A DNA stretch of 55,879 nt, taken from Gemmatimonadota bacterium. GTDB taxonomy: Bacteria > Gemmatimonadota > Gemmatimonadetes > Gemmatimonadales > GWC2-71-9. Position numbers and translations under genes: made by a program. The notes under the pieces were generated by a model that saw nothing but the letters and a program-made list of their open reading frames with translations, made no database searches and was not told the DNA's origin. Of the stretch, positions 10,989-34,758 are shown piece after piece. Where the stretch lies: assembly GCA_003221895.1 (NCBI GenBank), contig QHUJ01000116.1, forward strand, positions 1 to 55,879, given 5' to 3'. Position 1 is the stretch's first letter. Every line of letters begins with the position of its first letter.

Positions 10989-13900
10989 TCAACGTTGCCG
11001 CCCTGCAAGCGTGCGCATGCTCGCGAGCGTCGGCGCAAGCGGTGCATCCGCGCTTGCCCACATGTCGAGTACGCCGCGAGCCCAATGCTCAGCGGTCGTC
11101 TTGTCCCCCGCCCGTCCCGCGAGATCGGCGCGCAGGGCCATCGCGCGGACGAGCGCCGCTGCTTGCGGAACCTGGTCCAGGAGATAGGTCCCGAGCGTCG
11201 GCAGCGCCGTCAACGAGAGATCCAGCAGCTGCGTCGCGGCTCCGCTGTCGCCGATCTGCAGTAGCAGCACGGCCTCCAGATAGGTGCCGTCCACCGCCAC
11301 GTCACCGGGTCGCTGGTGACTGCGGAGCTGTGCAAGCCTCGCGCGCTCCGTACGGACCCGAGCGGTATCGCCATGCGCAAGCGCCCACTGCCACTCGAGG
11401 ACATAGTCTCCGCCCGCGTCCGCGCGATGGACATCCGTGAGCCCAAGCTGTGGGAATGCGAGTCCGACGGGCACGTGCAGCACCGCGAGCCGAACGCGCT
11501 CGCGCGCCATGGGCCCAGTCCAGCTTGCCACGCGGCGATCCACGCGCGCCTTCAGCGCTCGGAGGCTGTCCACGGGCCCACCAAGCGCCGCGTACCCAAG
11601 CAATGCAAGCGCTGCCTCCCTGACGGGTACCGGGGCCTCGGGGAGCGCCTCGCCGTCCCACGTCACGGGCGTGTCGACTGGCGCCGAGAGAGCGAGCAGC
11701 TCCGCCGTGCGATAGACTCGGCCCGTGAGCGCTGCGAGGCCCGCCAGGCGATGCGCTTCCATCGGATCCGGCGCGGCCGGCGCGACGGCGAGGATCGAGT
11801 CCGCGAGCGAGCGCGCGCGGGCGAACTGCTCGAGCTTCGCCAACAGGCGGATCTCGGCTAGGGCCAGGCGCGATGTCTGCTGGGCGTCGTGGCTGAGCGC
11901 CCGGCCGCGCCGTGCGGCCGCCAGCGCCGAACTCCCGGGCCCTCCATCGAGGGTGAGCTCACCGCTCGTCTCGAGGACAACCGAAAATGCCTCGAAGGCG
12001 TCAGCGCTCGTGGGGAACGCCTCGATCCACCGCTGAATGATCTCACCCAGCACCTGCCGGTTGCGGTCGACCGCGAGCGAAGTGCTGGGGGGATTGGCTT
12101 CCGGCCGGCCTCCGAACACCATCGCAATCGGATACGGCACGAAGGCCAGGGTATCGTGATCCAGCGAGGGAAACGCACCGAACTGTACAGGGGGCGCCGC
12201 CGGCGTGCCAGCGACAAAACCGGAGCGGACCAGGTTCGTCTCGACGTAGAACAGGTCCATCAGCCGTTGCGTGCCGATGCCCGTGAACGCGCGATGCACC
12301 GAGGGCACCAGCTCGAGCGCCCGGCGGTATGCGGCGGCCGCCGCTTGGTAACTCGACCGGAAGCGCCACCCCGACGGGCTGCGCGGGTCCCGCACCACGA
12401 CATGATCGCGGCGCTGGCACTCGCCCAACCCGAACCACGCGATGAAGTCGGTCGAATCGCGCGCGACGATCGCACGGTAATCGGCACACGCCTGCTCGAT
12501 CTCGCCGGTCGCCAGGTGCCTCAGCGCGCGCGCCAACGCCAGGTCGGGAGCGCCCAGTTTTTGCGTGCGCGAGAGTGCCCGAGCGGCACTCACTCCCCAG
12601 TCCGCGGCGGGCGCATCCGCCAGCAGCTGGGCATAGGCCAGCCACAGGTTCGCTTGCGCATAGTCGGGGTCACTTTCAAGCGCGGCGCGGAACAGTCGCT
12701 GCGCGCCGGCAAGGTCCCAGCTCGCCAGTGCTTCACGACCATCCGCATATGCGTAAAACGCCGCCAGGACTTCGGTGCCCAAGACGTCCGGGCGCACCTG
12801 CTTCGCGTTCACCCCCCCAAGCAGGATGGAATCGGCCAGCTGGCGGAACTTCGCCTCAAGTCTCTGCTCGTTCTTGTCAATGCGCACCGTATAATCGCGC
12901 ACGCTTTTGCCACCGTGCCGCAGGTCGTACAGCGCTGCCGTTACGTGAATCGAATCCCCCACCGCCGAGACGTCGCCCCACACGAGCATCCCCGCGCCGA
13001 CGTCCCTGGCAAGATTCTTGGCTTGGTCGAGCGTCATCGGTTGGTCGCCGCGACGCACTCGCGCGTCGTGTACCCGGAGCGGATCCGCCAGTCGAACATC
13101 CGCCCAGCGCCCGAAAGCCTGCGAGAGCAGCAGCTCACACTGGTCGCCGTTGACGAGTGCAGGCGCGGCACCGCCCCGATGCCCGAAAGGCACCACGACA
13201 TACAACGACGCGTCGAGCGGGCTAGCCCTGAGCTTGGGTAATACCACCACGCCCGCCGTCCCCAGCACGACGGCCGTTACCATCGCGGCGACCCGCCAGC
13301 GACGTGGGATGCGCCGGGTCCGGCGCGGGGACGAATCGGTTTGTGCCGGCCCCAACGCGGCCGCAAAATCGGCCGCCGTCGCGAAGCGCTCGGCGGGCAG
13401 CCGCGCGAGCGCCACTTCGATCGCGTATTCGACGTCGATCGGAATGTCGCGCCGCTCTACCGACAGCCCGGGACTCTGCCTCGCCGGCGTGCGACCGGCG
13501 TACGGCGGATGCCCGACCAGCATCTCGTAGAGGACGCATCCCAGACTGTAGATGTCGCTCCGGCCGTCCAGCTCGTCTCCGGCCGCCTGCTCCGGGCTCA
13601 TGTAGTCCACCGTGCCGACGACGATCCCCGTGCCGGTCACGCGCGCTTCGTTCGCCGCGCTGATCGCGCGCGCGATGCCGAAATCGCTCACGACGGGATG
13701 CCCCGCCTCGATGAGGATGTTCTCCGGCTTGATGTCGCGATGCACGATGTTCTGCGCATGCGCGTACGCCAGCGCGTCGGCCACGTCGCGCGCGATCTCT
13801 ACTGCATCGGCAACGGGCAGCCGGCCTTCACGCTGCAGCCGGTGTCGCAGCGATTCGCCCTCGACATACGGCATCGTGTAGAACAGCAGCCCGTCGGCGA

Positions 13901-14159
13901 TATCGGAGTCGAACAGCGGCAGGATGTGGGGGTGCGCCAGCGTGGCGGCGACCGTGATCTCGCGGAGGAACCGGTCGGGACCCAGCGCCTGAGCGAGATC
14001 CGGCCGGAGCACCTTGAGGGCCACCCGGCGCTCATTGCGGAGGTCGCGGGCGAGATAGACAAGCGACATCCCGCCACGGCCGATCTCGCGCTCAATCGTG
14101 TAGCGGCCCGCCAGAGCCGCGGCGAGCCGCGCCTGAAGGTCCTCCACGGGCATTAGCAT
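10989..14159 (-). CDS. Transmembrane Ser/Thr protein kinase with extracytoplasmic FlgO/TolB-like and TPR regions
   Basis: This 1056-aa bacterial PknB-type receptor kinase has its kinase domain at about 20-270. It shows a glycine loop (IGRGGMSLVYLA), Lys49 in VALKVL, HRDIKPEN (Asp142), DFG (159-161) and SPEQ. A basic stretch precedes a single transmembrane helix at about 288-308. The outer part begins with a TolB-N/FlgO-like domain (about 315-440), which includes GMLVWGDVS and VTAALYDL. It continues with about 600 residues of TPR-like helices. This architecture is common in Gemmatimonadota and Acidobacteria. ATG 14159 is used: the kinase fold starts 20 residues later, and the upstream in-frame codons coincide with a PD40 remnant in another frame. 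It probably phosphorylates cytosolic regulators in response to an envelope signal. Confidence 0.88.
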   Translation of the reverse strand: MLMPVEDLQARLAAALAGRYTIEREIGRGGMSLVYLARDLRNERRVALKVLRPDLAQALGPDRFLREITVAATLAHPHILPLFDSDIADGLLFYTMPYVEGESLRHRLQREGRLPVADAVEIARDVADALAYAHAQNIVHRDIKPENILIEAGHPVVSDFGIARAISAANEARVTGTGIVVGTVDYMSPEQAAGDELDGRSDIYSLGCVLYEMLVGHPPYAGRTPARQSPGLSVERRDIPIDVEYAIEVALARLPAERFATAADFAAALGPAQTDSSPRRTRRIPRRWRVAAMVTAVVLGTAGVVVLPKLRASPLDASLYVVVPFGHRGGAAPALVNGDQCELLLSQAFGRWADVRLADPLRVHDARVRRGDQPMTLDQAKNLARDVGAGMLVWGDVSAVGDSIHVTAALYDLRHGGKSVRDYTVRIDKNEQRLEAKFRQLADSILLGGVNAKQVRPDVLGTEVLAAFYAYADGREALASWDLAGAQRLFRAALESDPDYAQANLWLAYAQLLADAPAADWGVSAARALSRTQKLGAPDLALARALRHLATGEIEQACADYRAIVARDSTDFIAWFGLGECQRRDHVVVRDPRSPSGWRFRSSYQAAAAAYRRALELVPSVHRAFTGIGTQRLMDLFYVETNLVRSGFVAGTPAAPPVQFGAFPSLDHDTLAFVPYPIAMVFGGRPEANPPSTSLAVDRNRQVLGEIIQRWIEAFPTSADAFEAFSVVLETSGELTLDGGPGSSALAAARRGRALSHDAQQTSRLALAEIRLLAKLEQFARARSLADSILAVAPAAPDPMEAHRLAGLAALTGRVYRTAELLALSAPVDTPVTWDGEALPEAPVPVREAALALLGYAALGGPVDSLRALKARVDRRVASWTGPMARERVRLAVLHVPVGLAFPQLGLTDVHRADAGGDYVLEWQWALAHGDTARVRTERARLAQLRSHQRPGDVAVDGTYLEAVLLLQIGDSGAATQLLDLSLTALPTLGTYLLDQVPQAAALVRAMALRADLAGRAGDKTTAEHWARGVLDMWASADAPLAPTLASMRTLAGRQR

Positions 14160-14191
14160 ACGGCCTGGCTGCGGGGGCGGTAAGGGCTCGT

Positions 14192-14290
14192 TTAGTCGGT
14201 CCCTTCCCGCACCCGGGTGCTCACGAACAGATCCAGATCCTGGACTGCCGGGCTCGTCGAAACGCATGAATCCTCGGGCATCAGGGTTTT
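14192..14290 (-). pseudogene. Possible C-terminal remnant of a third PD40 lipoprotein
   Basis: Just past the stop of PD40 copy 2, in another frame, a short open stretch ends PAVQDLDLFVSTRVREGTD followed by TAA. Its QDLDLFVSTR is close to LQDLWISTR and FFDIWMTTR, the terminal motif of the two PD40 proteins here. The upstream part has decayed beyond recognition. It may be the worn tail of another copy, as at 2783-3013. The match is short, so chance is possible. Confidence 0.4.
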
Positions 14291-21926: not shown

Positions 21927-22597
21927 AACACGGCCGGCTCCATCGCCACCGACGCACCGGACGCCGTTTTTCAGCTCGCGAGCGGCTGGGGAACCCTCGA
22001 GTCCACCAAGGCGGACGACATGCGCGCCCAGCACCAGGCGCTGCAGGCACGTCGCCCGATCGCGTTCGTGAGCGACACCGCCTGCGATCTGCCGGATGAG
22101 CTGGTGTTGCAATATGACATCAAGCTTGTACCAACCCAGCTGATCGTGGACGAGCGGCCCTACCGGGACCGCCTCGAGCTGACCTCGGCCGAGTTCTTCC
22201 AACGCTTGCGGGCCGGCATGATGCCACGACCTCGCAGCCAGCCCCCCAGGCCTTCACTGACGCATTTCGCGATGCCGCTCGTGCAGGAAACCATGTGATT
22301 GCCGTCATCCTCTCGAGCGCCCTGTGCGGCACCTATGCGAATGCTGAGCCCGCTGCTCGCCGCTTCGACGCAGGCCGGGTTAGCGTCGTGGATAGCCGCA
22401 ACGTGACGCTGGGAGAGGGGCTGTTGGTGGTGCGTGGCGTAGAGCTTGCTGCAGCAGGCTGGAGCGCCGACGCGATCGTCAAGGAGCTCGTGACGCGCTA
22501 CCGCCCGATGCAGTGTCTGGTGACTCCGATTACACCGGTCATCGCGGCGCACGCCGGCATCGGCGCGTGGGGCGTCTTTTACCAGAACGAGGACTGA
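21927..22597 (+). pseudogene. degV family relic: 5' end lost, frameshifted, internally deleted
   Basis: Three lesions are visible. First, the frame from about 21927 (VFQLASGWGTLESTKADD, then RPIAFVSDTACDLPDEL, LVPTQLIVDERPYRD, SAEFFQRLRAG) lacks a start and opens abruptly after rplI. Second, at about 22224 one base is missing: family similarity jumps to the -1 frame, giving TTSQPAPQAFTDAFRD and NHVIAVILSSALCGTYANAE. Third, after SADAIVKELV (about 22494) roughly 95-100 residues of the usual fatty-acid-binding core are absent, and the text resumes at the extreme C-terminus (CLVTPITPVIAAHAGIGAWG). DegV proteins bind fatty acids (FakB type) and are about 280-300 aa. DAK2-DegV fusions exist, which might explain the N-terminal segment. 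It cannot make a functional DegV. Confidence 0.8.
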
Positions 22598-22619: not shown

Positions 22620-22997
22620 ATGGCTGAACCCGGGACGTTCGGGGTGCTCTCACGGGTCGTCGACGCCCTGCTGGGCCGCAAGGCGGTGGATCCCGTGGTA
22701 CTAGACCTGCGTGGGTTATGCGCGGCCACCGACTACTTCGTGATCGTGTCCGGAACCTCGAATGCGCACGTGCGGGGCATGGCGGAGTACCTCGTGAGTG
22801 CACTCGCGCCCTCGGGAATCGAGCCGCATCATGTGGAAGGGTTGGCGCAGGGGCGTTGGGTGCTCCTCGACTACGTCGATTTTGTGGTGCACGTATTTCA
22901 CCCCGAGCTGCGGGACTTTTACCAGCTCGAACGGTTGTGGGGCGACGCCCCTGTCGTCGCCGCTGGTGATGCAGATGGGACAGGCGCGGGAGGGTAG
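22620..22997 (+). CDS. rsfS: Ribosomal silencing factor RsfS
   Basis: This 125-aa RsfS/Iojap protein binds L14 and blocks 30S-50S joining under starvation. Typical text: VVLDLRGLCAATDYFVIVSGTSNAHVRGMAEYL (family VLDLRxLSxxTDYFVIxSG), HHVEGLAQGRWVLLDYVDFVVHVFHPELRDFYQLERLW. The length is typical. It follows the degV relic by 22 nt and is 6 nt upstream of the next gene. Confidence 0.95.
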   Translation: MAEPGTFGVLSRVVDALLGRKAVDPVVLDLRGLCAATDYFVIVSGTSNAHVRGMAEYLVSALAPSGIEPHHVEGLAQGRWVLLDYVDFVVHVFHPELRDFYQLERLWGDAPVVAAGDADGTGAGG

Positions 22998-23003
22998 GCA
23001 GGT

Positions 23004-26000
23004 ATGCGACGTGGCATAGCCAGTGTAGCGGTGTTCGCGGCGTTGCTGGTGGGTGCGCAGCCGGTAGCGGCGCAGTACTTCGGTCAAAACAAGGTCCAGT
23101 ACCGCTCGTTCGACTTCAAGTCGATCCAGACCGAGCACTTCGACATCTACTATTACTCGGATGAACGCGGTGGCGCGCTCGACGCCGCGCGCATGGCGGA
23201 GCGCGCGTATGCGCGGCTGTCCCGGATTCTCCACCACCAGTTCCAGAGCCGCAAGCCGATCATCCTCTACGCTTCGCAAGCGGATTTCCAGCAGACAAAC
23301 GTGGTCGACGCCTCGGGCGAAGGGCTCGGCGGTGTAACGGAATTCTTCAAGCACCGCGCCGTGATGCCGTTCACGGGCTCGTACGCGGAATTCGAGCACG
23401 TGCTGCAACACGAAATGGTGCACCAGTTCCAGTACGACATCTACAGTCGCGGCCGCCCCGGCGCCGGTGTGGGGACGCTGATGAGCGTGAATCCGCCGCT
23501 CTGGTTCATGGAGGGCATGGCGGAGTATCTGTCGCGCGGGCCGATCGATCCCGAAACGGCGATGTGGCTGCGCGACGCCGCGCTCGAGGGCCATCTGCCT
23601 TCGATCGAGGAAATGACGCTCGATCCCTACATCTTCCCGTACCGCTACGGGCACGCGCTGTTTGCCTACATCGGCGAGAAGTGGGGCGACGAGGTCATCG
23701 GCGAAATCCTGCAAGCCTCGGCGAGCTCCGGCATCGAAGCCGCGGTCAAGCGCGCCACGGGTCGCAACCTGGACGATCTCTCCGCCGACTGGCGCGACGC
23801 GATCCAGACGACGTTCCTGCCGCAGCTCGGCGATCACTACCGCGCGCGCCGCATCGCGCAACCGGTGCTGACACAGCGCCGGTCACGCGGCCGCATCTTC
23901 CTCGCGCCGGCGCTGACACCGGACGGGAAGGACATCGCCTTCTTTGGCGACGAGGGAACGTTCTTCGTCGATCTTTGGCTGGCCGATGCGGAGACCGGGC
24001 GGGTCAAGCAGCGACTCGTGAAGTCCACGATCAACAACAATTACGAGAGCCTGCGCTTCATCAATTCCGCGGGATCGTTCTCTCCCGACGGCCGCTACTT
24101 CGCGATCGCCGCCAAGCACAAGGATCGCGATGATCTCGTGATCATCGATGTGAAAAAAGGGCGAGAAGCCAGCCGCATCCGTGTCCCGCTCAACGGCATC
24201 CAGACGCCGCGCTGGTCACCCGACGGCACGCAGCTCGTGTTCACCGGCTTCACGAACGGCTTTACCGATCTCTACATCATCAACCGCGACGGCAGCGGGT
24301 TGATGCGGCTCACCGCCGACAAGTACGCCGACTTGCACCCATCGTGGTCGCCGGATGGCAACCTGATCGCGTTCGTCACGGATCGCGGTCCGACGACCGA
24401 TTTCGATCTGCTGCGGTTCGGCAATCTGCGCATCGCGCTGTATCACCTCGACACGCACCGGATCGAGATCCTGCAGCACATGGATGTCGGCAAGAATATC
24501 GATCCGGCGTGGGCGCCGGACGGGCGCTCCCTGGCGTTCGTCTCGGATCGGACGGGCATCGCCAATGTGTTCTTGTACGAATTCGACGACGAGCAGATCT
24601 ACCAGTTGACCAACATGTTCACCGGCGTCCAGGGGATCACGCCGCTCTCGCCGGTGCTGTCGTGGGCCCGGCAGGCCGATCGCCTTGCATTCGTCTATTA
24701 CGAAGACGGCCAGTACAGCGTGTACTCGGTGGACAATCCCCGTTCGCTGCGGCGCGCACCGTACCAGGGACCCGCCACGCGGCCGGTCACGCTGCTCCTC
24801 TCGGAAACGCACGATCAGCTCGCCGCGGAGCCAACGCTCACCCCCCCCAGCGTGAATGCCATGGGCGGCACCACGACACCGGTATTCTCGGATGGACCGT
24901 CGCGTATGAGCGCGTCGATCTACCGTTCTCTGAGCGGCTTCCGTCCGTCGGCGTCGCCCGGGGTGGACTCGTCCTCGGTTCCACAACCGTTGACGGTGAG
25001 GGAGCTGCTCGATTCGGCAACGCTGTCGCTGCCGGACACGAATGAGTTCACCTTCCGACCCTACCGGATCCGCTTCACGGCCGACTACTACGTGCGGCCG
25101 ACGGTCGGATATCAGCGCGACAATTTCGGCCGCGGCGTCTTCGGCGGCACCGCGGTCGCGCTGTCCGATATCCTCGGCAATCACACTGTCGTGTTCGCAG
25201 GTTCGATCAACGGCCGGATTAGTGAAGCCCAGATGCTCGGGCTCTATGCCAATCAGTCGAACCGCATGAACTGGGTGACGGGCTTCTCGCAGGACCCGCT
25301 CTACTACTACGGCGGCAGCTCGTGGAGGCGCGTCTCCGATCCGAACGGGGAATCGGGTGACAGTCTCGACGTCTTCTCGACGCGCATCCGCCGGTTCGTC
25401 AGTCGCAGCATTTTTACGTCCGCCTCGTATCCGTTCAGCCGCTTCAACCGCGTCGAGCTCGGCCTGCAAGGCGTCAACGTGAGTGAAGCGACGCTCGATG
25501 TGCAAACGAAATTCGACGCGGCCAGCGGCGCTTTTGTCGAGCAGTCGCTCATCAGCGGCGGCGGTCCAACGGCCACGTACATCCAGCCGTCGATCGCGCA
25601 TATCCACGATAACACCCTGTTCGGCTACGTCGGGCCGTTCGCGGGCGCGCGCTCGCGGTTCTCGATCGCTCCCGCCATCGGCACCTGGCAATTCATTTCC
25701 GGCCTGGCCGACTACCGGCGCTACATCTTCGCTCGGCCGTTCACGCTGGCGTTCCGCGGGCTGTTCATGGGGCGCTACGGTAAGGACGCCGACCGGTTCC
25801 CGATTTTCCTCGGCAGCACGGAGCTGATTCGCGGCTACACGTCCGGCTCGTTCCGCAGCCACGAGTGCGCCGTGACTCCAGGATCGGGTCCGCGAACCGG
25901 GTGCGGCCAGCTCGATCAACTGGTTGGCTCCAAGATCGCAGTTGCCAACGTCGAGCTGCGGTTCCCGCTGGCGCGCAGCCTGGTACTGGGATTCCTGCCG

Positions 26001-26252
26001 ATCGGACTGCCGCCCATCGAAGGCGCGTTCTTCTATGACATGGGCGTGGCGTGGTACGACGCGAGCAATCTGAAATGGGACCGCGGGCCGCTGGAGAATC
26101 CGTTGCTCGTACGCAAGCCGCTCCGCAGCTGGGGTGGATCGATCCGCGCCAACATGGCCGGCCTCATGATCCTGCGGTTCGACTATACCAAGCCGCTCGA
26201 CCGCCAGTACAACAAGGCGTATTGGACCGTGAGTATCGGCCCGACGTTCTAA
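23004..26252 (+). CDS. Outer-membrane protein: gluzincin peptidase + TolB-like propeller + OMP85-like barrel
   Basis: This 1082-aa protein is made of three parts after a signal peptide (ends near QPVAAQ). Residues about 30-270 are a peptidase-MA-like zinc metallopeptidase: HEMVH at 136-140 and a downstream Glu in WFMEGMAEY at 170-174 complete the gluzincin ligand set. Residues about 285-600 are TolB/PD40 repeats (ALTPDGKDIAFF, PRWSPDGTQLVFTG, PSWSPDGNLIAFV, PAWAPDGRSLAFVSD). Residues about 690-1082 are a beta-barrel of the Omp85/surface-antigen type, with a RGYTSGSFR-like motif and a C-terminal Phe, the usual outer-membrane signature. It probably acts at the outer membrane. Substrate unknown. 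It follows rsfS by 6 nt, but a long hairpin separates it from the next gene. Confidence 0.85.
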   Translation: MRRGIASVAVFAALLVGAQPVAAQYFGQNKVQYRSFDFKSIQTEHFDIYYYSDERGGALDAARMAERAYARLSRILHHQFQSRKPIILYASQADFQQTNVVDASGEGLGGVTEFFKHRAVMPFTGSYAEFEHVLQHEMVHQFQYDIYSRGRPGAGVGTLMSVNPPLWFMEGMAEYLSRGPIDPETAMWLRDAALEGHLPSIEEMTLDPYIFPYRYGHALFAYIGEKWGDEVIGEILQASASSGIEAAVKRATGRNLDDLSADWRDAIQTTFLPQLGDHYRARRIAQPVLTQRRSRGRIFLAPALTPDGKDIAFFGDEGTFFVDLWLADAETGRVKQRLVKSTINNNYESLRFINSAGSFSPDGRYFAIAAKHKDRDDLVIIDVKKGREASRIRVPLNGIQTPRWSPDGTQLVFTGFTNGFTDLYIINRDGSGLMRLTADKYADLHPSWSPDGNLIAFVTDRGPTTDFDLLRFGNLRIALYHLDTHRIEILQHMDVGKNIDPAWAPDGRSLAFVSDRTGIANVFLYEFDDEQIYQLTNMFTGVQGITPLSPVLSWARQADRLAFVYYEDGQYSVYSVDNPRSLRRAPYQGPATRPVTLLLSETHDQLAAEPTLTPPSVNAMGGTTTPVFSDGPSRMSASIYRSLSGFRPSASPGVDSSSVPQPLTVRELLDSATLSLPDTNEFTFRPYRIRFTADYYVRPTVGYQRDNFGRGVFGGTAVALSDILGNHTVVFAGSINGRISEAQMLGLYANQSNRMNWVTGFSQDPLYYYGGSSWRRVSDPNGESGDSLDVFSTRIRRFVSRSIFTSASYPFSRFNRVELGLQGVNVSEATLDVQTKFDAASGAFVEQSLISGGGPTATYIQPSIAHIHDNTLFGYVGPFAGARSRFSIAPAIGTWQFISGLADYRRYIFARPFTLAFRGLFMGRYGKDADRFPIFLGSTELIRGYTSGSFRSHECAVTPGSGPRTGCGQLDQLVGSKIAVANVELRFPLARSLVLGFLPIGLPPIEGAFFYDMGVAWYDASNLKWDRGPLENPLLVRKPLRSWGGSIRANMAGLMILRFDYTKPLDRQYNKAYWTVSIGPTF

Positions 26253-26278
26253 CTCCGCGTCGCCAAAACAGTTGCAAT

Positions 26279-26313
26279 GGCCTCGCCGGTTGTCTATTTT
26301 GTCCGGCGAGGCC
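26279..26313 (+). terminator. Strong hairpin at the SPOR lipoprotein start (terminator or ribosome-binding-site lock)
   Basis: GGCCTCGCCGG (26279-26289) pairs perfectly with CCGGCGAGGCC (26303-26313) across a 13-nt U-rich loop. With one bulged A the stem extends through GCAAT/ATTGC, to about 17 bp. No U-tract follows. It overlaps an ATG (26277), and its 3' arm contains the GAGG before TTG 26316. It can be a terminator for the upstream OMP gene or a translational switch. Confidence 0.5.
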
Positions 26314-26315
26314 AA

Positions 26316-27701
26316 TTGCCTATCTCCCGTTTCCTTCTCTGTGCGACTGTGACGCTGTGGGGCTGTGGATCCCAGGCGCCGGCGGCGGCATCATCACAAC
26401 AGCAATCGCCACAACGCGTTAGTCAACTCCAAATCATCGCCCGCATGCCCGGAGCGGCCATCCGGTTGCCCGCCAAGGGAGGGGCGCCACAGCTCTACCG
26501 GCTGCCCCGGATGACGCTGGTCGACGGCGCACTGCGCGGCAAGTTGCCGCCCGTCGAGCGCGTGGTCGGCCTCGATCCCGAATCGGAGTTCCTCTTCGTC
26601 ACTACCGCCAAGAAAGAGCTCCTCGCGCTCGACCTCGGCAGCGGCCGGGTCGATACCGTGGCGACCAGCGTCGCCCAGGCGACACTCGGTCCCGACGGCA
26701 CGCTGTACGCCGTCGATGCGCAGCGACGCGTCATCTCGTTGTCGCGGCGTACGCGATTCGCGTGGCCGCAACCGCTCACCGCGTTGCCGCGCGATCTCTT
26801 CGGCGCGACCGACCAGCATCTCGTGGGCGTGATTCCGCAGGATCGTCTGCTCGTGGCGGCCCCCGACCAACCGCCGGCCGTTCGTCCGATCGCGGCGAGC
26901 GGCGACGTCACCGCAACGCGGTGGGGCGATCTCGTCGCCGTGGCCAGCGATTCGGGTGTCACCTTCTACGATCCGCTGGCACGCCGCGACCCCGCGTTCG
27001 TACGACTCGAGGGTGGTCCCCGCGCGCTCGCATTCTCGCCGTCGGGACATCGGATCTATGTGGCGCGCCGCAACACGCCCGGGCTGGCTGTCATCGATCG
27101 CTTCGAGCGTAAAGAAGTCGATGGGGTCGCACTTCCTGGACCAGTTGCGGCATTGCGGCTCGATCCGCTGGGACGCTGGCTGCTCGCGCGTCCGACCGTC
27201 GGTGACTCAGCGTGGATCGTCGATCTGCCGATCAAGCAGCACACCGGCATCATCCCTACTCAATGGCAGGCCGATCTCCCGTCGATTTCGCCGGACGGCA
27301 TGCTGATCTCCCGCCGCGGCGGTGATGTGGTGTCCCTGCGGCCCGACTCGCTCAGCGAAGTTGGGCGCGTGAAGAATGGCGCCGCGGATCTCTGGGTCCT
27401 CACGTCGTGGCTGCCGCGTGGCGTGCCCTCGACGCAGGCGAGCGCGGGCGCTGCGGCTGCGGACAGCGTCGGAACCGAGGGTCCGCTGTACGTGCAGGTC
27501 TCCACGTCGCAGAACCCGGAATGGTCGGGCCATTTGGCTGACGACCTCACGCGTGCCGGTCTCGCCGCGCGCGTGTTGCCACCGCAGCACCCTGACGACG
27601 GCTATCGTGTGGTCCTCGGGCCCTACGCGACGCGCTCGCAGGCCGAGGCGATCGGCCGGCGGTTGGGACGCCCCTTCTGGATCTACCAACCCGGACAGTG
27701 A
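26316..27701 (+). CDS. Propeller lipoprotein with C-terminal SPOR domain
   Basis: This protein of about 461 aa starts at a TTG (26316; GAGG 6 nt upstream), giving a short lipoprotein signal PISRFLLCATVTLWGC. An ATG at 26277 is in frame but inside the hairpin stem. Residues about 50-380 show weak WD/NHL-like propeller repeats (PESEFLFVTTAKKELLALDL, GPDGTLYAVDAQRRV, AFSPSGHRIYVARRN, SISPDGMLISRRGG). The last 75 residues form a SPOR domain (YVQVSTSQNPEWSGHLADDL, YRVVLGPYATRSQAEAIGRR), which binds denuded peptidoglycan glycans at division septa. It overlaps the next SPOR gene by 4 nt (GTGA), which in turn overlaps smc. A septum-located envelope role is inferred. Confidence 0.75.
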   Translation: MPISRFLLCATVTLWGCGSQAPAAASSQQQSPQRVSQLQIIARMPGAAIRLPAKGGAPQLYRLPRMTLVDGALRGKLPPVERVVGLDPESEFLFVTTAKKELLALDLGSGRVDTVATSVAQATLGPDGTLYAVDAQRRVISLSRRTRFAWPQPLTALPRDLFGATDQHLVGVIPQDRLLVAAPDQPPAVRPIAASGDVTATRWGDLVAVASDSGVTFYDPLARRDPAFVRLEGGPRALAFSPSGHRIYVARRNTPGLAVIDRFERKEVDGVALPGPVAALRLDPLGRWLLARPTVGDSAWIVDLPIKQHTGIIPTQWQADLPSISPDGMLISRRGGDVVSLRPDSLSEVGRVKNGAADLWVLTSWLPRGVPSTQASAGAAAADSVGTEGPLYVQVSTSQNPEWSGHLADDLTRAGLAARVLPPQHPDDGYRVVLGPYATRSQAEAIGRRLGRPFWIYQPGQ

Positions 27702-28984
27702 CGACCGCGACCCCTCCCGCTCCACCGACCGCCCCCCGGCAGTTGCCGCTCTCGCGGCTCGGCCATCTGGTGCCGCCGCTGCTCGACGGCCAGGCGTTGG
27801 TCGCGCTCGTCGGGCTGACGGACGATCTGCCCTGGGCCGCGAAAGCGGCGTGGGACATCGCCCGCATTGCGGCGCGCGACGGGCGCAGGATCGCGCTCGT
27901 CGATATGAATCTCGAGCGCCCCGCCCTGCATGAGACCATCGGGATGGCACCCACCGAAGGCATTGTGGATGCTTTCGAGTACGGTGTTTCGCTGAACAAA
28001 GCCGCGCACGAAGTCACGGGCGTGTTCTTCATTCCCGCCGGCTCGGACACGGCGCGCGCGCCCGAGCTGTACGCCCACCCGCGCTGGCCCAAGCTCCAGG
28101 CGGGATTCCGTTCCGAAGGAGCGCTGCTCCTGGTTTTCATTTCGCTTTCCGGACTGTCGCAGCTGTCCGCGGTCGCGGACGGCGCGCTCGTGCTGTCGCC
28201 CGATGGCGTGGGTCCGAGCTTCACGATCGGGCGGGATATCCCCTTGCTCGGCGTGGTCCGCGACCGGTGGTTGCCAGCGGCGAGTCATCGTACGCCACCG
28301 GCCGCCGTGCCGCTGCCGATCGTTGTGGATGCACCAAAACGTCGTGGGCTGCGCGTTGCCATCACGATGTTGGTGGTCGGGGGTATCGCTGTGGGAGGTT
28401 GGGCGCTGCTCGCGGGAGCGCGCGAGTCACTTGTCCCAAAGCCGGCCGCCCCCGCCCCCGCCCCCCCCCCAGCGCCCTTGGCTTCACCATCCTCCACCGT
28501 TCGCCACCCACCTCCACCGCCGGTCGTTCGCGACACGCTGGGTTGGACGGTTCAGCTTGCGGCATACGCGTCGCTCGACAAGGCGCTCGCGCATGCCGAC
28601 CGTCTGGCCGCCGATGCCGGGCTGCCCACGCTGGTCACTCCGGTGCGGCAGAGCGAGAACGGCCCCTTGTGGTATCGAGTCCTGGCGGGTTCGTACGCCA
28701 CGCGGGCGGACGCTGCCGGCGCGCGCGCGGGGTTGTGGCGCCGGGGCGTCGTCAGCGAAGGCATCGGCGACCTGCTGCTGGCGCCGTATTCCTATCATGC
28801 ACCGGCGGGCGTTTCGCTCGATTCGCTGCGCCGCCGTGGTCTTCCCGCCGTCCGCTGGTCCAATGGGGTGATCTTGATGGGCGCGTTCGAGGCGCCCGAT
28901 CAGGCAACCTCCACCCAAGCCGCACTCAAACGCGCCGGCGTGCGCGCGAACCTACTCCCCCGTATGGGGGCGGGGCCACCATGA
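27698..28984 (+). CDS. Membrane protein: degenerate CpsD/ParA-like domain + TM + SPOR repeats
   Basis: Residues about 30-190 of this 428-aa protein follow the CpsD/BY-kinase/ParA-like P-loop pattern. VALVGLTDDLPWAAKAAWDI stands where VxSxxPGEGKST is expected, so only the Lys of Walker A remains. RRIALVDMNLERPALHE keeps the Walker A' VDxDLxRP shape, and PAGSDTARAPELYAHPRWPKL matches the family's PAG..xNPxELL segment. A transmembrane helix (about 219-240) leads to a Pro-rich linker and two SPOR-like units (WTVQLAAYASLDKALAHAD with YRVLAGSYATRADA; then VILMGAFEAPDQATSTQ). It overlaps the previous SPOR gene by 4 nt and smc by 4 nt. It is probably a non-hydrolysing ATPase-like anchor that reaches peptidoglycan; nucleotide binding is doubtful. 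Confidence 0.75.
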   Translation: MTTATPPAPPTAPRQLPLSRLGHLVPPLLDGQALVALVGLTDDLPWAAKAAWDIARIAARDGRRIALVDMNLERPALHETIGMAPTEGIVDAFEYGVSLNKAAHEVTGVFFIPAGSDTARAPELYAHPRWPKLQAGFRSEGALLLVFISLSGLSQLSAVADGALVLSPDGVGPSFTIGRDIPLLGVVRDRWLPAASHRTPPAAVPLPIVVDAPKRRGLRVAITMLVVGGIAVGGWALLAGARESLVPKPAAPAPAPPPAPLASPSSTVRHPPPPPVVRDTLGWTVQLAAYASLDKALAHADRLAADAGLPTLVTPVRQSENGPLWYRVLAGSYATRADAAGARAGLWRRGVVSEGIGDLLLAPYSYHAPAGVSLDSLRRRGLPAVRWSNGVILMGAFEAPDQATSTQAALKRAGVRANLLPRMGAGPP

Positions 28985-31900
28985 GACTGAGCAGGCTCGA
29001 GCTCGCTGGCTTCAAATCGTTCGCGGGCCGGGTTGAACTGCCCTTCGATCAAGGCGTGACGGCCATCGTGGGGCCAAACGGCTGCGGCAAATCCAACATT
29101 TCCGACGCCGTGCGCTGGGTGCTGGGCGAGCAGTCGCCGCGCTTGCTGCGCGGCGGGAAGATGGAAGACGTCATCTTCCAGGGATCCACGGGACGCCGAC
29201 CCGTCAACGTCGCGGAAGTCTCGCTCGTGTTCGACAACTCGGACGGCACCCTGCCGCTTGCCTACCAGGAAGTCGTCGTCACCCGCCGCCTGTCGCGCTC
29301 CGGCCAGAGCGACTACCTCCTGAACCGCTCACCGGTGCGGCTGCGAGACATTCAGGATCTGCTGCGTGGCACCGGGCTTGGCGCCGACGCCGCGGTCGTG
29401 ATGGAAGCGAAGATGATCGAGGCGTTGCTCTCGGAGAAAGCGGAGGAGCGACGCGCGCTGTTCGAGGAAGCGGCCGGCATCGGTCTCTACCGTGACCGGA
29501 AGAAGAGCACGGAGCGCCGGCTCGAGGAGACGGCAGCCGATCTCGCGCGGCTCGAGGACCTGATTGCCGAAGTTCAGACGCAGGTGCGGAGCCTGGCGCG
29601 TCAACGCGGCCGCGCCGAGCGCTACGGCAAGATGGTGGAGGAGCGCTTCGGCATCGCGATGACCCTGGTGCGGCGCGAGCTGGAAGACTTCGACATCTCG
29701 CTCGGCTCGCTCGGGGTCCGCGGCCGCGAGCTGGCGGAGACGATCCCGGCGGCGCGGGCGCGGCTGAGCGACGCGGAGCATGAACGCGAAACGCGCGTGC
29801 AGGCGCGTCACACGGGGGAGGCACGCCGGACGGAGGTCGAGCGCCGTCTCGGCGACGCCAAGCTCGAAGTGGGACGGCTCGAGAGCGATCTCGCGCTCGC
29901 AGCGGAGCGGCTCAGCAACGCGGGCCAGCGCCGCCAGACGGCCGCGGAGGAGCGCGCGCAGGCGGAGCGGCGCGCCGGGCAGGCCGAACGGGAGCACGAC
30001 GCGGCCGAGGCTGAGCGCGCCGCCGCCGCGCAGGATCTCGCCGCCGTTCACGGTGAGCTGACCGCGCGGACCGGCGACGAGAACGATGTGCGCGGGCGGC
30101 TCACGGCCGAGCGGGCCGGTGTGCGGGAGCTGGAGGAAGCGCTGCAACGTCGCGCCGAGTCCGCGCGCGCGCTCGAGCTGGAAGCCGCGGCGCTCGACCG
30201 GGAGCGCAGCGAGCTGCGGGAGCAGCTCGCGCTGGCCACGGGCGAGCGCCAGGATCGGGAAGCCGCGGCGCGCGAAGCGGCGCGACAGACGGACGCCGCG
30301 GGGCAGCGCATGGCGCGTGACGCGCAAGCTGCCGTGCGCGGCGTCGAAGCACTGCAGCACGCGCGGCGTCACGTCGCGGCATTGCAAGAGCAGGAGATGA
30401 CCGCCCGTTCGGCGCGCCGTCAGGCGGAGGCTGCGCTGGCGCAGCTCGAGGCGCGGCGCGACGCGCTCACCGAGCTCGACCGCGAGCACGTTGGTCTCGC
30501 CCCGGCCGCCCAGGCTCTCCTCAAGGCGCGCTCCAAGTTCGGTGAAGGAACCGTCCTGGGACCTCTCTCCGATTTCGTCCGGACCAGCCGCCGCGACGCC
30601 GAGCTCGCAGAACGGCTGCTCGGCGAATCGCTGCACGCCGTGCTGGTGCGCGACGCGTCGGTCATCGACGCGATTCGGGCGTGGCACGCCGAGAAGCAGC
30701 CCGGTCCACTGGTGCTGCTGCCGTGCGTGCCGGGACCGCGCCTGGGCGCAGATGGGCATCCGCTCAAGGACGAGCTGCGCGTCGACGGACCGGCCGCCGC
30801 CTGGGTGCGCGCACTGCTCGCCGGTCACGAGGTCCTGGGCAGCGGCGCGCTGCGCCGTGCGAATGGCGCCGTGTTCCTCGATAGCGGCGCGTCCACGGCC
30901 GCCGGGCCGCTACAGCGCCGCGCGGAGCTCGACGCCCTTGAAAAGGACGTGCGCGATGCCGCGACCAATCTCGATCGCGCCCGGGCGGCCGAAGAGACGA
31001 CCATCAAGGAGCTCGCGGCAGCGGAGACTGCCCTCGCGACCGCGGCGCAGGCGGCGGAGCAAGCGCGCCGCACCGAGCTGGACGCTGGCGCCGAAAAGGG
31101 GGAGGCGGATCGCGGCTTGATTCACGCGCGCCGTGAGGCAGCGGAAATCGCGACGCAGGTCGACCGCCTGACCCGGCGCCTGGCGGAAGTCGAAACACGG
31201 CTCGGCAGCGTGCATGCGGAGCTGCAAGAACGAGAGCTGGAGCGGGTGCGCTCCGCGGAACAGCTCAGTGCCGAGCGCGGCGCACTCGCCGATCTCGAAG
31301 CGCAGCAGGAGGCGGCCCGCGAACAGCGCGTGCGCTGGCAGGTCGAAGCCGCGCAGGTCGAAGCCCGGCTCACAGCCGCGACCGAACGGGCCAGCCGCGC
31401 CCACGCCGACGCCACCTCCTCGCGGGAGCAGGGCGCCGCGCGCCTGGAGGAAATCAGGCGGATCGAGAGTGACAGCGCGGCGCTGACGACGCAGCGAGCG
31501 CAGTGGGAAGACACCCTCCAGGAACGCCGCGTCGCGCTGACCGAGCTGGAGGGCGCGACGCGCGATGCCGAAACGAACGTCGCCATGACCGACGCCGATC
31601 TCGGCCAGGCGGAAGGCGCGCTCGATCAAGCCCGGAAGGCGCTCGCCGCTCTCGGTGAGGAGGAGCATCGCCTCCAGCTGCAGCGGACCGAAGTCGAAGG
31701 GCGCAAGCGCGGGTTGATCGAGCGGGTCGAGACCGAGTGGCGCAAGCCGCTCGATACGCTGCTGGCCGAGGCGCCGGAGGTGCCGGGCGATCTCGAATGG
31801 CTGCGGCAGGAGAACGACCGACTGCGTGGCGCCATCGACGCGGTCGGCCCGGTCAACGCGCTCGCTGTCGAAGAGCACGCCGAGGAAAACAAGCGCCTCG

Positions 31901-32451
31901 ACTTCCTCCAGACCCAGCGCGACGATCTCGTGACGGCCCGCAACTCGCTGCAGCAGGCGGCCCGGGAAATCGATCAGACGGCTAAGACCCTGTTCCTCGA
32001 GTCGTTCGGCAAGGTGCGCGACCACTTCCGCTCGGTTTTCCAGACGCTGTTCGGCGGCGGCGAGTGCGACGTGCGTCTCGGCAGCGAAGATGAGCCGCTG
32101 GAAAGCGAAATCGAGATTCACGCTGCACCCCGCGGTAAGCGCACGCAGCGGATCCATCTGCTGTCGTCGGGCGAGCGAACCCTCGTCGCGGTGTCGCTGC
32201 TGTTCGCCATTTTCCTCGCCAAGCCCAGCCCGTTCTGCCTGCTCGACGAAGTCGATGCGCCGCTCGACGACGCCAACGTGGGTCGCTACGTACGCCTGTT
32301 GGCGGAGTTCAAGGACCAGACGCAGTTTATCGTCATCACCCACAACCCCCGCACGATGCAGGCAGCAGACGCCGTATACGGCGTCACCATGCAGGAGCCG
32401 GGCGTGTCCACCATCGTGGGCGTGCGCCTCGGCCAGATGGAACCCGTCTAG
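28981..32451 (+). CDS. smc: Chromosome segregation protein SMC
   Basis: This 1156-aa condensin ATPase begins MRLSRLELAGFKSF and has Walker A at 31-38 (GPNGCGKS). Next comes the family loop GTGLGADAAVVMEAKMIEAL with EERRALFEEAAGI, two long Ala/Arg/Glu-rich coiled coils, and a hinge near the middle (about 500-660; FGEGTVLGPLSDFVRTS). The C-terminal ATPase half carries signature SSGERTLVAVSLLFAIF and Walker B FCLLDEVDAPLDDANV. ATG 28981 overlaps the preceding SPOR gene (ATGA), so it is coupled to the SPOR pair. scpA and scpB are not in this window. Length is normal. Confidence 0.97.
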   Translation: MRLSRLELAGFKSFAGRVELPFDQGVTAIVGPNGCGKSNISDAVRWVLGEQSPRLLRGGKMEDVIFQGSTGRRPVNVAEVSLVFDNSDGTLPLAYQEVVVTRRLSRSGQSDYLLNRSPVRLRDIQDLLRGTGLGADAAVVMEAKMIEALLSEKAEERRALFEEAAGIGLYRDRKKSTERRLEETAADLARLEDLIAEVQTQVRSLARQRGRAERYGKMVEERFGIAMTLVRRELEDFDISLGSLGVRGRELAETIPAARARLSDAEHERETRVQARHTGEARRTEVERRLGDAKLEVGRLESDLALAAERLSNAGQRRQTAAEERAQAERRAGQAEREHDAAEAERAAAAQDLAAVHGELTARTGDENDVRGRLTAERAGVRELEEALQRRAESARALELEAAALDRERSELREQLALATGERQDREAAAREAARQTDAAGQRMARDAQAAVRGVEALQHARRHVAALQEQEMTARSARRQAEAALAQLEARRDALTELDREHVGLAPAAQALLKARSKFGEGTVLGPLSDFVRTSRRDAELAERLLGESLHAVLVRDASVIDAIRAWHAEKQPGPLVLLPCVPGPRLGADGHPLKDELRVDGPAAAWVRALLAGHEVLGSGALRRANGAVFLDSGASTAAGPLQRRAELDALEKDVRDAATNLDRARAAEETTIKELAAAETALATAAQAAEQARRTELDAGAEKGEADRGLIHARREAAEIATQVDRLTRRLAEVETRLGSVHAELQERELERVRSAEQLSAERGALADLEAQQEAAREQRVRWQVEAAQVEARLTAATERASRAHADATSSREQGAARLEEIRRIESDSAALTTQRAQWEDTLQERRVALTELEGATRDAETNVAMTDADLGQAEGALDQARKALAALGEEEHRLQLQRTEVEGRKRGLIERVETEWRKPLDTLLAEAPEVPGDLEWLRQENDRLRGAIDAVGPVNALAVEEHAEENKRLDFLQTQRDDLVTARNSLQQAAREIDQTAKTLFLESFGKVRDHFRSVFQTLFGGGECDVRLGSEDEPLESEIEIHAAPRGKRTQRIHLLSSGERTLVAVSLLFAIFLAKPSPFCLLDEVDAPLDDANVGRYVRLLAEFKDQTQFIVITHNPRTMQAADAVYGVTMQEPGVSTIVGVRLGQMEPV

Positions 32452-32460
32452 AGTCCCACA

Positions 32461-34758
32461 ATGCGGCGGCTGTTCTGGCTCGTCCTTCTGCCCGCCGGGC
32501 TGGCGGCGCAGCGGCCGGCAGTTTCCCCAGTGCTGCCGCGAGTCTGGCAGCGCACGCAGGACACGACGCTCTCCGTATGGCTCTTCGTCCGTCCCGAGGC
32601 ATCACTTGCCGCCGTCAGCGAGCGCGCCGCAGCCCTCGGCGCCCGCGTGCGCGTGCAAAGCCGCTGGCTCCACGCCATCAGCGTCGATGCACCCACGACG
32701 GCGCTGCGGGTCCTGGCACAGGATCGGAACCTGCGCCGCATTCAGCCACTCGGACGGTTTCGACTGCGCACTCCGCCGCGCAGCGGCCGTCCTGCGACAG
32801 AGCAGGCGCCTCCGGTCGTGCTCGCGCCCACCGCGGCACCCGGCGACACGTGCGGGGTGACACCGGGCGACGATCCGGTGCTCGGCCCCTCCGAGATGCC
32901 GTACCGCCAGCTCCATCTCCGCCCGCTGACCGATCAGGGAGTGAACGGCACGGGCGTCCGTATCGCGATCCTGGACGCGGGCTTCAATACGACGAATCCC
33001 GCGTTCAATGGCATCACTGTCACGGCGCAGTACGATTTTGTGTATCACGACAGCGTGGTGCGCAATCAGTCGCATGACGACAGCACGTTCAATGCGGCGT
33101 TTCACGGCACTGCCGTCTGGTCGCTGTTCGCGGGGGATGTGCCAGGCCGGCTCCACGGCATCGCGCGTGGCGCAAGCTACCTGCTCGCCAAGACGGAAGA
33201 CGTGCGTAGCGAGACGCGCGTCGAAGAGGACAACTACGTCGCCGCACTCGAGTGGGCCGACTCGATTGGGGTCGACATCGTCTCGTCCAGCCTCGCCTAC
33301 CTCGTTTTCGACAACGGATTCAGTTACACGCCATCGCAGCTGAATGGTGACGTCGCGGTCACGACCGTCGCCGCCGACATGGCCGCCCAGCGCGGCATCC
33401 TCGTCGTGACGGCGGCGGGTAACGAGGGGCCGGGCTCGCGCTCCATCTGGACGCCCGCCGACGGGGACTCGGTGCTCGCGGTCGGCGCGGAGGATTCGCT
33501 CGGCACCATCGCTTTCTTTTCGTCGCGCGGCCCGACGGCGGACGGCCGCATTAAACCCGACTTCACCGCCCCCGGGGTCGCGGTGTGCGTCGTGACGGAC
33601 ATCGGCCACGTGAATCGTCTCGACGGCACCTCGTTCGCAACGCCGCTGCTCGCCGCCAGCGCCGCGCTCATCAAGCAGCTGCACCCCACGTTGACGCCGA
33701 TCGGGCTGCGGACGGCATTCCGCAATGTGGCGAGCAATCGGGCCAGCCCCGACACGATTCGTGGCTGGGGCCGGCCCGACGTGAGCGCCGTCGGCGTGTT
33801 TCCCACGGGTGTCGCGGCGATCGCCCCACTCGCGTCCGGCGGTACGCTGACGACCATCACGCCGGCCTTCTCGTGGACCGTTGGAACCGTTCCCCCATCC
33901 GCGATGCCCGTGAGCTACCGGCTGCGCATCGCCCGCGACAGCACGTTCACCACACCGCTCATCGACACGATCGTGACGGTCGAGACGTTCGACCTCGGAC
34001 AGCCGCTCAAACCCGGCTCCGTGTTCTGGCAGATCGACGCGACCGCCGCGACGGGAGAGAAAGCGACGACGGGAATCGTCGGGCCGATTCCCGTCCCACC
34101 CTGGGCGACGCTCCTAACCCTCAACAATCCGGCCGGCTCCGTCACAAATTCAGCGGCGCCCACGTTCACATGGAGCTCGCCGGGCGTGTCGTCCCCACCC
34201 GGCCCGTTGACGTACGACCTGGCGGTGCAGCGTGTCTCCACGGGACTCTATGACTTTGGCGTTGTCGGATTGCGGGACACGACGTTCACCCTGACGCAGC
34301 CGCTCGAGCTGAATACCACGTATCGCTGGCACCTCGTGATCCACGCGGGGAACGACACCACGCTGGTGCGCAGTCAGGGAACGTTTCTCGTTACAGACGG
34401 TGGTTTACCGACGGCGACGCTGCTGTATCAGAACTTTCCCAACCCCTTCCCTGCCGGCGGTCGCGACTCGACCTGCCTCTGGTTCGACGTCGCCACGGCA
34501 GGAACCGTCGAGCTCGATATCATCGATTTGCGCGGCAATCCGGTGCGTCGCTTCATACCTGGCAAAGACTTTCCAGCCATTCTGGACGCGGGACGTTACG
34601 GCCGCGGGACGAGCGGCGGCATCGGACTCTGTGATTCGCGGCTGATGTGGGATGGTCGAGCGGATGATGGCACCCTGTTGCCTGCCGGCGTTTATCTCGC
34701 CAAGCTCAAGGCACCCGGCTTGCTCGTGTTCAAGCGGATCGTCTTTCGAGGCAGATAG
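32461..34758 (+). CDS. Secreted S8 serine peptidase with FlgD-like C-terminal domain
   Basis: This 765-aa protein has a signal peptide (FWLVLLPAGLAAQ) and a propeptide-like region (about 35-100). The subtilase domain shows Asp172 in AILDAGFN, His215 in FHGTAVW, Asn321 in TAAGNEGPGS and Ser391 in GTSFATP. Two Ig/FN3-like beta units follow (about 450-640). The end is a FlgD-like/T9SS-type domain with YQNFPNPFPAGG, IIDLRGNPVRRF and LMWDGRADDGTLLPAGVYL. It begins 9 nt after smc but is functionally unrelated to it. The His motif is GTAVW rather than GTHVAG, as in some divergent S8 members. Extracellular proteolysis is expected. Confidence 0.85.
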   Translation: MRRLFWLVLLPAGLAAQRPAVSPVLPRVWQRTQDTTLSVWLFVRPEASLAAVSERAAALGARVRVQSRWLHAISVDAPTTALRVLAQDRNLRRIQPLGRFRLRTPPRSGRPATEQAPPVVLAPTAAPGDTCGVTPGDDPVLGPSEMPYRQLHLRPLTDQGVNGTGVRIAILDAGFNTTNPAFNGITVTAQYDFVYHDSVVRNQSHDDSTFNAAFHGTAVWSLFAGDVPGRLHGIARGASYLLAKTEDVRSETRVEEDNYVAALEWADSIGVDIVSSSLAYLVFDNGFSYTPSQLNGDVAVTTVAADMAAQRGILVVTAAGNEGPGSRSIWTPADGDSVLAVGAEDSLGTIAFFSSRGPTADGRIKPDFTAPGVAVCVVTDIGHVNRLDGTSFATPLLAASAALIKQLHPTLTPIGLRTAFRNVASNRASPDTIRGWGRPDVSAVGVFPTGVAAIAPLASGGTLTTITPAFSWTVGTVPPSAMPVSYRLRIARDSTFTTPLIDTIVTVETFDLGQPLKPGSVFWQIDATAATGEKATTGIVGPIPVPPWATLLTLNNPAGSVTNSAAPTFTWSSPGVSSPPGPLTYDLAVQRVSTGLYDFGVVGLRDTTFTLTQPLELNTTYRWHLVIHAGNDTTLVRSQGTFLVTDGGLPTATLLYQNFPNPFPAGGRDSTCLWFDVATAGTVELDIIDLRGNPVRRFIPGKDFPAILDAGRYGRGTSGGIGLCDSRLMWDGRADDGTLLPAGVYLAKLKAPGLLVFKRIVFRGR

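Follow-up and report, generated by a model that had tools for sequence, protein, structure and literature searches.

Introduction

Fusions of an enzyme to an Omp85 barrel are little characterized. The WD40-Omp85 subfamily, which has been likened to a BamA–BamB fusion, has an N-terminal TolB-like propeller and a C-terminal Omp85 barrel and lacks POTRA domains (Heinz and Lithgow, 2014; PMC4104836). Here we analyze a gene at positions 23004..26252 (+) of a 55,879-nucleotide stretch of DNA from a Gemmatimonadota bacterium (the whole of contig QHUJ01000116.1, assembly GCA_003221895.1; below, the window). Its product, the window protein, agrees with the description of WD40-Omp85 given in the main text of the 2014 paper, and differs from it in that a predicted gluzincin, i.e., a zinc peptidase of the MA clan, precedes the propeller. 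That main text does not contain the word "peptidase"; the propeller–barrel pair is already known since 2014, and the added peptidase appears to be the new element.

The same paper prints a class of "Omp85-metalloproteases" (the "Metallo" subfamily), which shares the metalloprotease label with the window protein, but is based, according to its text, on PF00149 (PMC4104836). In the model library, the PF00149 model on which this class rests is named Metallophos. We take PF00149 to be a phosphoesterase family, not a zinc peptidase. N-terminal metalloprotease domains are also mentioned, with reference to earlier work, in the introduction of PMC11116518. From the same source, PlpD, a patatin-Omp85 protein, resembles the window protein in being an enzyme fused to an Omp85 barrel; it has a patatin-like lipase and POTRA, with no propeller reported there, whereas the window protein has a peptidase, a propeller, and no POTRA match (PMC11116518). 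PlpD was formerly thought to act like an autotransporter; in the experiments on this protein its enzyme domain resides in the periplasm, although low amounts of a breakdown product may appear in the medium (PMC11116518).

From the result lists of searches in the openly licensed PMC literature, some of which gave part of the hits, we recognized no publication on a peptidase–propeller–barrel chain; the three-part architecture can probably be seen in sequence databases. Such a fusion would bring a protease to the outer membrane.

Gene model and domain architecture

The gene is a single frame that starts with ATG and encodes 1082 amino acids (aa), with the C-terminus ...SIGPTF, i.e., with the terminal Phe noted in the initial annotation of the window. 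All coordinates given below are on the plus strand, unless indicated otherwise. Family models and AlphaFold2 divide the chain into a gluzincin, a TolB-type propeller, and an Omp85-type barrel; the suggestion of the initial annotation that one chain unites a zinc peptidase, a TolB propeller, and an Omp85-like barrel is thus borne out, as all three folds are found in the models. The AlphaFold2 prediction, made from the window protein and 73 further sequences, has a mean predicted local distance difference test score (pLDDT) of 85.0 and a predicted template modeling score (pTM) of 0.81.

Residues 1–23 (23004..23072) form a putative signal peptide, the cleavage site between A23 and Q24 being assigned by reading of the sequence. 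The alignment of full-length proteins (alignment A2, n = 74) conserves Q24 in 74/74 and A23 in 73/74 sequences.

Loci of relatives were collected by a scan of genome contigs, and the best 80 of 442 relatives were retained. Catalytic residues were assessed in 77 sequences, the window protein and 76/80 loci, four loci being dropped as partial or having an uncertain start. Alignment A2 consists of the window protein and 73 loci, 43–79% identical to it, and omits L070, L087, and L092, of which L070 starts at a contig end and has no start codon.

The same single chain is seen in 76/80 loci under full-length criteria and in 22/24 distant genomes, and no evidence in favor of a chimeric or mis-assembled frame was found; we therefore rejected such an artifact with near certainty. 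The protein is a confirmed three-part fusion of a peptidase, a TolB-type propeller, and a BamA-type barrel.

Peptidase domain

The gluzincin (peptidase MA) domain, delineated by the fold of the isolated domain and its structure matches, occupies residues about 37–281 (23112..23846). The zinc-binding and catalytic motif HEMVH is at residues 136–140 (23409..23423); by homology, E170 (23511..23513), in WFxEGMAEY, is the third zinc ligand and Y213 (23640..23642) is the catalytic Tyr. All five residues, H136, E137, H140, E170, and Y213, are identical in 77/77 aligned sequences and are also unchanged in 24/24 distant members of the phylum with a match, so that a chance occurrence of the motif is ruled out. 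In the closer loci, HExxH-(20 to 45)-WxxEG occurs in 80/80 cases. The regular expression YxxG missed 7/80 loci, whereas the alignment yields Y213 in 77/77.

Since the fold matches of the full-length model are taken up by the propeller and the barrel, residues 24–292 with the peptidase were modeled separately (pLDDT 85.4; pTM 0.83). The 50 listed rows of fold matches of this domain, with Z-scores of 16.5 to 12.6 and sequence identity of 8–16%, include the Grimontia/Vibrio and Clostridium collagenases, the M30 peptidase lugdulysin, M1 aminopeptidases, and leukotriene A4 hydrolase. One of these rows, 7edx, bears the title of a TFIID complex; in others, named as complexes of coronavirus spike and aminopeptidase N, the long chain was taken as the peptidase. 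Bacterial collagenases (M9), lugdulysin (M30), and M1 aminopeptidases have the same fold and catalytic residues as the predicted peptidase of the window protein; they are not known to carry an outer-membrane barrel.

In the profile alignment, H136, E137, H140, E170, and Y213 are paired with H492, E493, H496, E520, and Y564 of Grimontia collagenase (motif HEYVH; Glu520 and Tyr564 by counted coordinates). As reported for that enzyme, zinc is bound by His492, His496, and Glu520, and the E493A mutant is inactive; Y564A is less active toward collagen and gelatin, and shows no activity with either of two synthetic peptides (PMC9304777).

The combination defining a gluzincin, HExxH and a distal Glu in a collagenase/M1 fold, is hence found here, in agreement with the initial annotation, which had pointed to HEMVH and a distal Glu. 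It had also named a HEMVH site that forms no pocket as a refutation; the gluzincin fold and the zinc-site residues are present, and the predicted site is defined by these two. The peptidase is likely active as a zinc peptidase.

The Pfam model Peptidase_MA_2 has no match to the window protein at E ≤ 1; the paralogue L003 scores 33.7 bits against a cut-off of 32.4, and 4/21 members of alignment A1 match at E ≤ 0.01.

Mature N-terminus, propeller, and linker

The predicted mature protein starts with the conserved motif QYFGxNxVQY (residues 24–33; 23073..23102). Residues 24–36 are the most conserved block measured, with the mean consensus of 0.81 vs. 0.70 for the peptidase; the model confidence is low up to residue 27.

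The TolB-type beta-propeller spans residues 282–583 (23847..24752), as identified by a structure match and PD40 repeats (Pfam, E = 6.6e-25). The modeled propeller (residues 282–569) matches the TolB-type structure 2ojh with a Z-score of 26.1 and a root-mean-square deviation (rmsd) of 2.7 over 252 aligned residues. TolB of the Tol-Pal system shares this fold with the window protein; however, the latter misses the cut-off of the TolB equivalog model (118.5 bits vs. 343.15, despite E = 3.4e-34), and has a peptidase N-terminal to the propeller.

The propeller is followed by a linker (residues 584–682; 24753..25049), mostly of low model confidence, whose length varies in the alignment between 44 and 139 aa across 74 sequences. 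Inside this otherwise low-confidence region, residues 638–648 (24915–24947) contain a conserved SxYR...GFR, possibly a binding motif.

Barrel

Residues 683–1082 (25050..26249), up to the C-terminal Phe, form an Omp85-type barrel according to the structure match and the strands of the model. The initial annotation had proposed structure prediction as a check of its barrel, and would have been refuted by a C-terminal region that does not fold as one; this outcome did not arise, since in the model residues 692–1082 match BamA (8xnb_A) with a Z-score of 24.0 and an rmsd of 3.8 over 305 aligned residues, followed by chains of the sorting and assembly machinery (SAM) complex (Z up to 23.2) and TamA (Z 21.6). 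Many match rows start at residues 34–116, and thus take in a few non-barrel residues. There are ten model strands in residues 692–925, then a long loop to residue 976, and five further strands. The count of 16 strands (11 + 5) depends on a short strand at residues 683–686; otherwise, from residue 692, there are 15. The 11 + 5 split around a long loop is the Omp85 arrangement.

The long loop contains R943-G944-Y945 (25830..25838), with R in 72/74, G in 74/74, and Y in 60/74 sequences. RGF/Y in loop 6 is a motif of Omp85 barrels, here represented by I942-RGY. Distant members with a barrel have RGY, RGF, or RGA in 22/22 cases. In the same loop, the Cys pair C955/C967 (25866..25904), possibly a disulfide, is conserved in 74/74 sequences each. 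Downstream of the loop is F1010-Y-D1012-x-G, with D1012 in 74/74; in a quick alignment of distant members, this column has no D in two of the four f11 genomes tested (L162 and L165), and L164 is truncated before it. Among the distant members L149–L167, the last residue is in many cases Trp (as in APGW), not Phe.

The BamA equivalog model yields 25.1 bits, against a cut-off of 297.15, and the Pfam model PF01103 has no match in the window protein. PF01103 does match 13/21 members of alignment A1 at E ≤ 0.01 (best 1.5e-14), the window protein not being among the 13, and the paralogue L002 exceeds its cut-off (29.8 vs. 24). A POTRA-like element, the search for which the initial annotation had suggested, was not seen: no Pfam POTRA model matched the window protein up to E = 1, at settings where the HMMER filters drop many weak matches. 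By its modeled fold, the barrel is a member of the Omp85 superfamily (16-strand type).

Distribution, paralogues, and outside relatives

The family has a match at E ≤ 1e-60 in 294/297 sampled Gemmatimonadota genomes; the remaining three have none at this threshold, nor at 1e-40. It is hence a family of predicted zinc peptidases on an Omp85 barrel in a phylum that lies outside the usual models. To cover distant members we used 27 genomes of this sample, comprising families f5 to f8 (same class), family f11 (other class), and the three that had no match. Of these, 24/27 have a match at E ≤ 1e-40, counted at the family level, i.e., the matching gene may be orthologous to the window gene or to one of its paralogues. 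The barrel is in the same frame in 22/24 distant members; the remaining two are truncated by a contig end before it. The conserved catalytic residues (24/24) and barrels (22/24) in the distant genomes make the phylum-wide claim firmer.

The window's genome contains three more family members, C139, C180, and C174. C139 is 44% identical to the window protein over residues 10–579; C174 is diverged, with a weak barrel match (1.5e-5), HELTH, and WVIEGLATY. An HExxH-type motif is present in all three paralogues.

Among the contigs of the best 80 of 442 relatives, 78 are titled with Gemmatimonadota taxa and two just "bacterium" (HR33, WY3.bin98). Among plasmids, 68 matching records were found, none reaching 80% coverage. 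In these two sets, the only good relative from outside the phylum was Salinibacter ruber WP_118831798.1, a 633-aa "basic secretory protein-like protein" on plasmid pSR116. It shares the peptidase and the propeller (39.4% identity over query residues 21–572), including a similar mature N-terminus, AQYFGKNKAQY; unlike the window protein, it has no barrel match in its chain. The next gene was considered as a split-off barrel and rejected, since it matches serine carboxypeptidase and not the barrel profile.

Other envelope machinery in the genome

A separate BamA is encoded at G000:C31 (399.5 bits vs. the cut-off of 297.15), and a second, BamA/TamA-like frame at C60 scores 232.7 bits, below that cut-off; BamD is above its cut-off as well (125.8 bits). 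BamA exceeds the cut-off in 35/41 genomes, and BamD in 21/21. Hence, the window protein is not the only Omp85 protein of the cell, its barrel is not the sole insertase candidate, and we rejected it as a replacement of BamA.

A TolB-like frame at G000:C196 scores 233.9 bits, under the TolB cut-off. The TolB model passes this cut-off in 0/21 genomes and 2/14 controls, and has a match at E ≤ 1e-60 in 15/21. The separate C196 frame, even though a sub-cut-off match, led us to reject the window protein as a TolB replacement; it is probably not the TolB of the cell.

None of the 21 genomes of relatives has a protein above the cut-off of the BamB model, with sub-cut-off matches in 20/21; as this model passes in only 1/14 controls, the absence says little. 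The window's genome also encodes M48 peptidases, with four clear and two borderline matches.

Proposed function and alternatives

Given the computed domain content, folds, catalytic residues, phylum-wide family, and neighborhood in the closer relatives, we infer that the window protein may be an outer-membrane-anchored periplasmic zinc endopeptidase with a housekeeping role in Gemmatimonadota, a reading to which we assign a probability of about 0.5. Once the protein has been exported and its signal peptide cleaved off, the Omp85-type barrel at the C-terminus would insert into the outer membrane and serve chiefly as an anchor, with the peptidase and the TolB-type propeller hanging into the periplasm via a linker that would be flexible. 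Propellers dock or select substrates beside the active site in tricorn and S9 peptidases; here, the propeller might likewise be a docking and selection surface next to the active site, and the peptidase would cut unfolded or extended envelope proteins near the membrane. The Salinibacter relative, having a peptidase and a propeller and no barrel, indicates that the pair can stand alone, which makes the barrel look like a tether that was added to it. The periplasmic location of the enzyme domain of PlpD, as described in PMC11116518, makes it less likely that the N-terminal part of the window protein is secreted.

Several observations weigh against this anchored-peptidase reading. The peptidase-family scores of the window protein are weak (BSP, 4.5e-4; Peptidase_M9, 0.012), both under the cut-off, and the best solved protein found by the domain profile, Grimontia collagenase, has a weak E = 0.011. 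The sequence scores of the barrel are similarly weak and under the cut-off (BamA, 5.4e-6; Omp85_fam, 0.0017). The anchored-peptidase reading does not account for the mature N-terminus, the block with the highest conservation. The barrel has not decayed to a plain anchor, and its retained RGY motif and invariant Cys pair fit an active insertase equally well. For the peptidase, whose sequence score is weak, the case is carried by fold, residues, and spacing all agreeing; the Omp85 and peptidase assignments become firmer because the paralogues L002 and L003 pass the respective cut-offs and 13/21 members of alignment A1 match PF01103.

Because the barrel keeps the RGY signature, processing during insertion stays a serious rival. 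Here, in a sharper version of the proposal of the initial annotation, the protein would act in outer-membrane protein assembly or quality control, the barrel engaging clients as an insertase and the peptidase trimming or removing stalled ones, so that one chain would combine BamA, BamB, and BepA, the latter being an M48 peptidase with a role in outer-membrane quality control. The conserved IRGY and FYDxG of the Omp85 barrel agree with such a role, as does the lack of BamB matches above the cut-off (0/21), although the BamB model is too narrow for this count to mean much; the absence of a POTRA match, the separate BamA and BamD, and the genome's own M48 peptidases speak against it. The comparison of propeller–barrel proteins with a BamA–BamB fusion in the 2014 paper also favors it (PMC4104836), and on balance we hold it to be possible, leaning to unlikely. 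More doubtful still is the stronger form, a one-chain station at the core of the envelope biogenesis of the phylum, where the BamA-type barrel would receive clients, the BamB/TolB-type propeller would hold them, and the gluzincin would trim or destroy them. If true, a single quality-control station would replace, across a whole phylum, the separate proteins used by Proteobacteria. The three-domain reading of the initial annotation stands, and its proposal that substrates are processed during outer-membrane insertion or secretion is possible but unsupported.

The barrel could also display the peptidase and propeller on the outside of the cell, or allow their release, in the manner of an autotransporter, yielding an extracellular protease. 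A propeller with a collagenase-like peptidase could serve nutrient proteolysis, and a barrel-less relative does exist in Salinibacter; nevertheless, the near-universal presence and fixed neighborhood of the gene are unlike those of a secreted accessory protease, and two folded domains would have difficulty in crossing such a barrel. As PlpD, once thought to behave similarly, has also been placed in the periplasm (PMC11116518), we deem surface display improbable. Even less credit is given to a catalytically idle peptidase in a chain that merely organizes envelope contacts. The propeller and barrel are indeed well conserved, which favors it; but so are the full catalytic set (77/77 and 24/24) and the HExxH...WxxEG spacing (80/80), and the motif recurs in three paralogues.

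The conservation, the neighborhood, and the intact predicted active site pose a clear, testable question, and with this family one can test directly if clients can be presented by an Omp85 barrel to a protease that is part of the same chain.

Gene neighborhood

The gene is preceded by rsfS (22620..22997; family models), which is directly upstream on the same strand in 73/73 loci with room (frame end within 350 bases; loci with at least 400 bases upstream). Further upstream, rplI is present in 66/67 loci with at least 1500 bases. Downstream is a gene for a SPOR-domain protein (26277..27701; family models), which has a possible lipobox, seen by eye, and also a weak propeller match; a homologue is present in 70/80 loci, and starts within 300 bases in 44/72 loci with room. 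It is followed by an ATPase-like and SPOR protein (27698..28984), present in 29/56 loci with room, and by smc (28267..32451, the start being tentative; family model, with the SMC domain from about 28987), found downstream in 55/56 loci with at least 3500 bases. The two consecutive SPOR genes ahead of smc (26277–28984) possibly belong to an envelope/division operon.

Between rplI and rsfS, a DegV-like gene (21936–22594, +) is broken into two overlapping frames, which match positions 2–59 and 58–156 of 280, the last part of the family being unmatched; it is preceded by a trace of a FakA-like middle domain (0.0016, under the cut-off). Farther away, the window contains a subtilase gene after smc (32461–34758), a LolA gene further downstream (36611–37297), and, on the minus strand, a gene for a 1092-aa protein kinase with TPR repeats (10989–14267).

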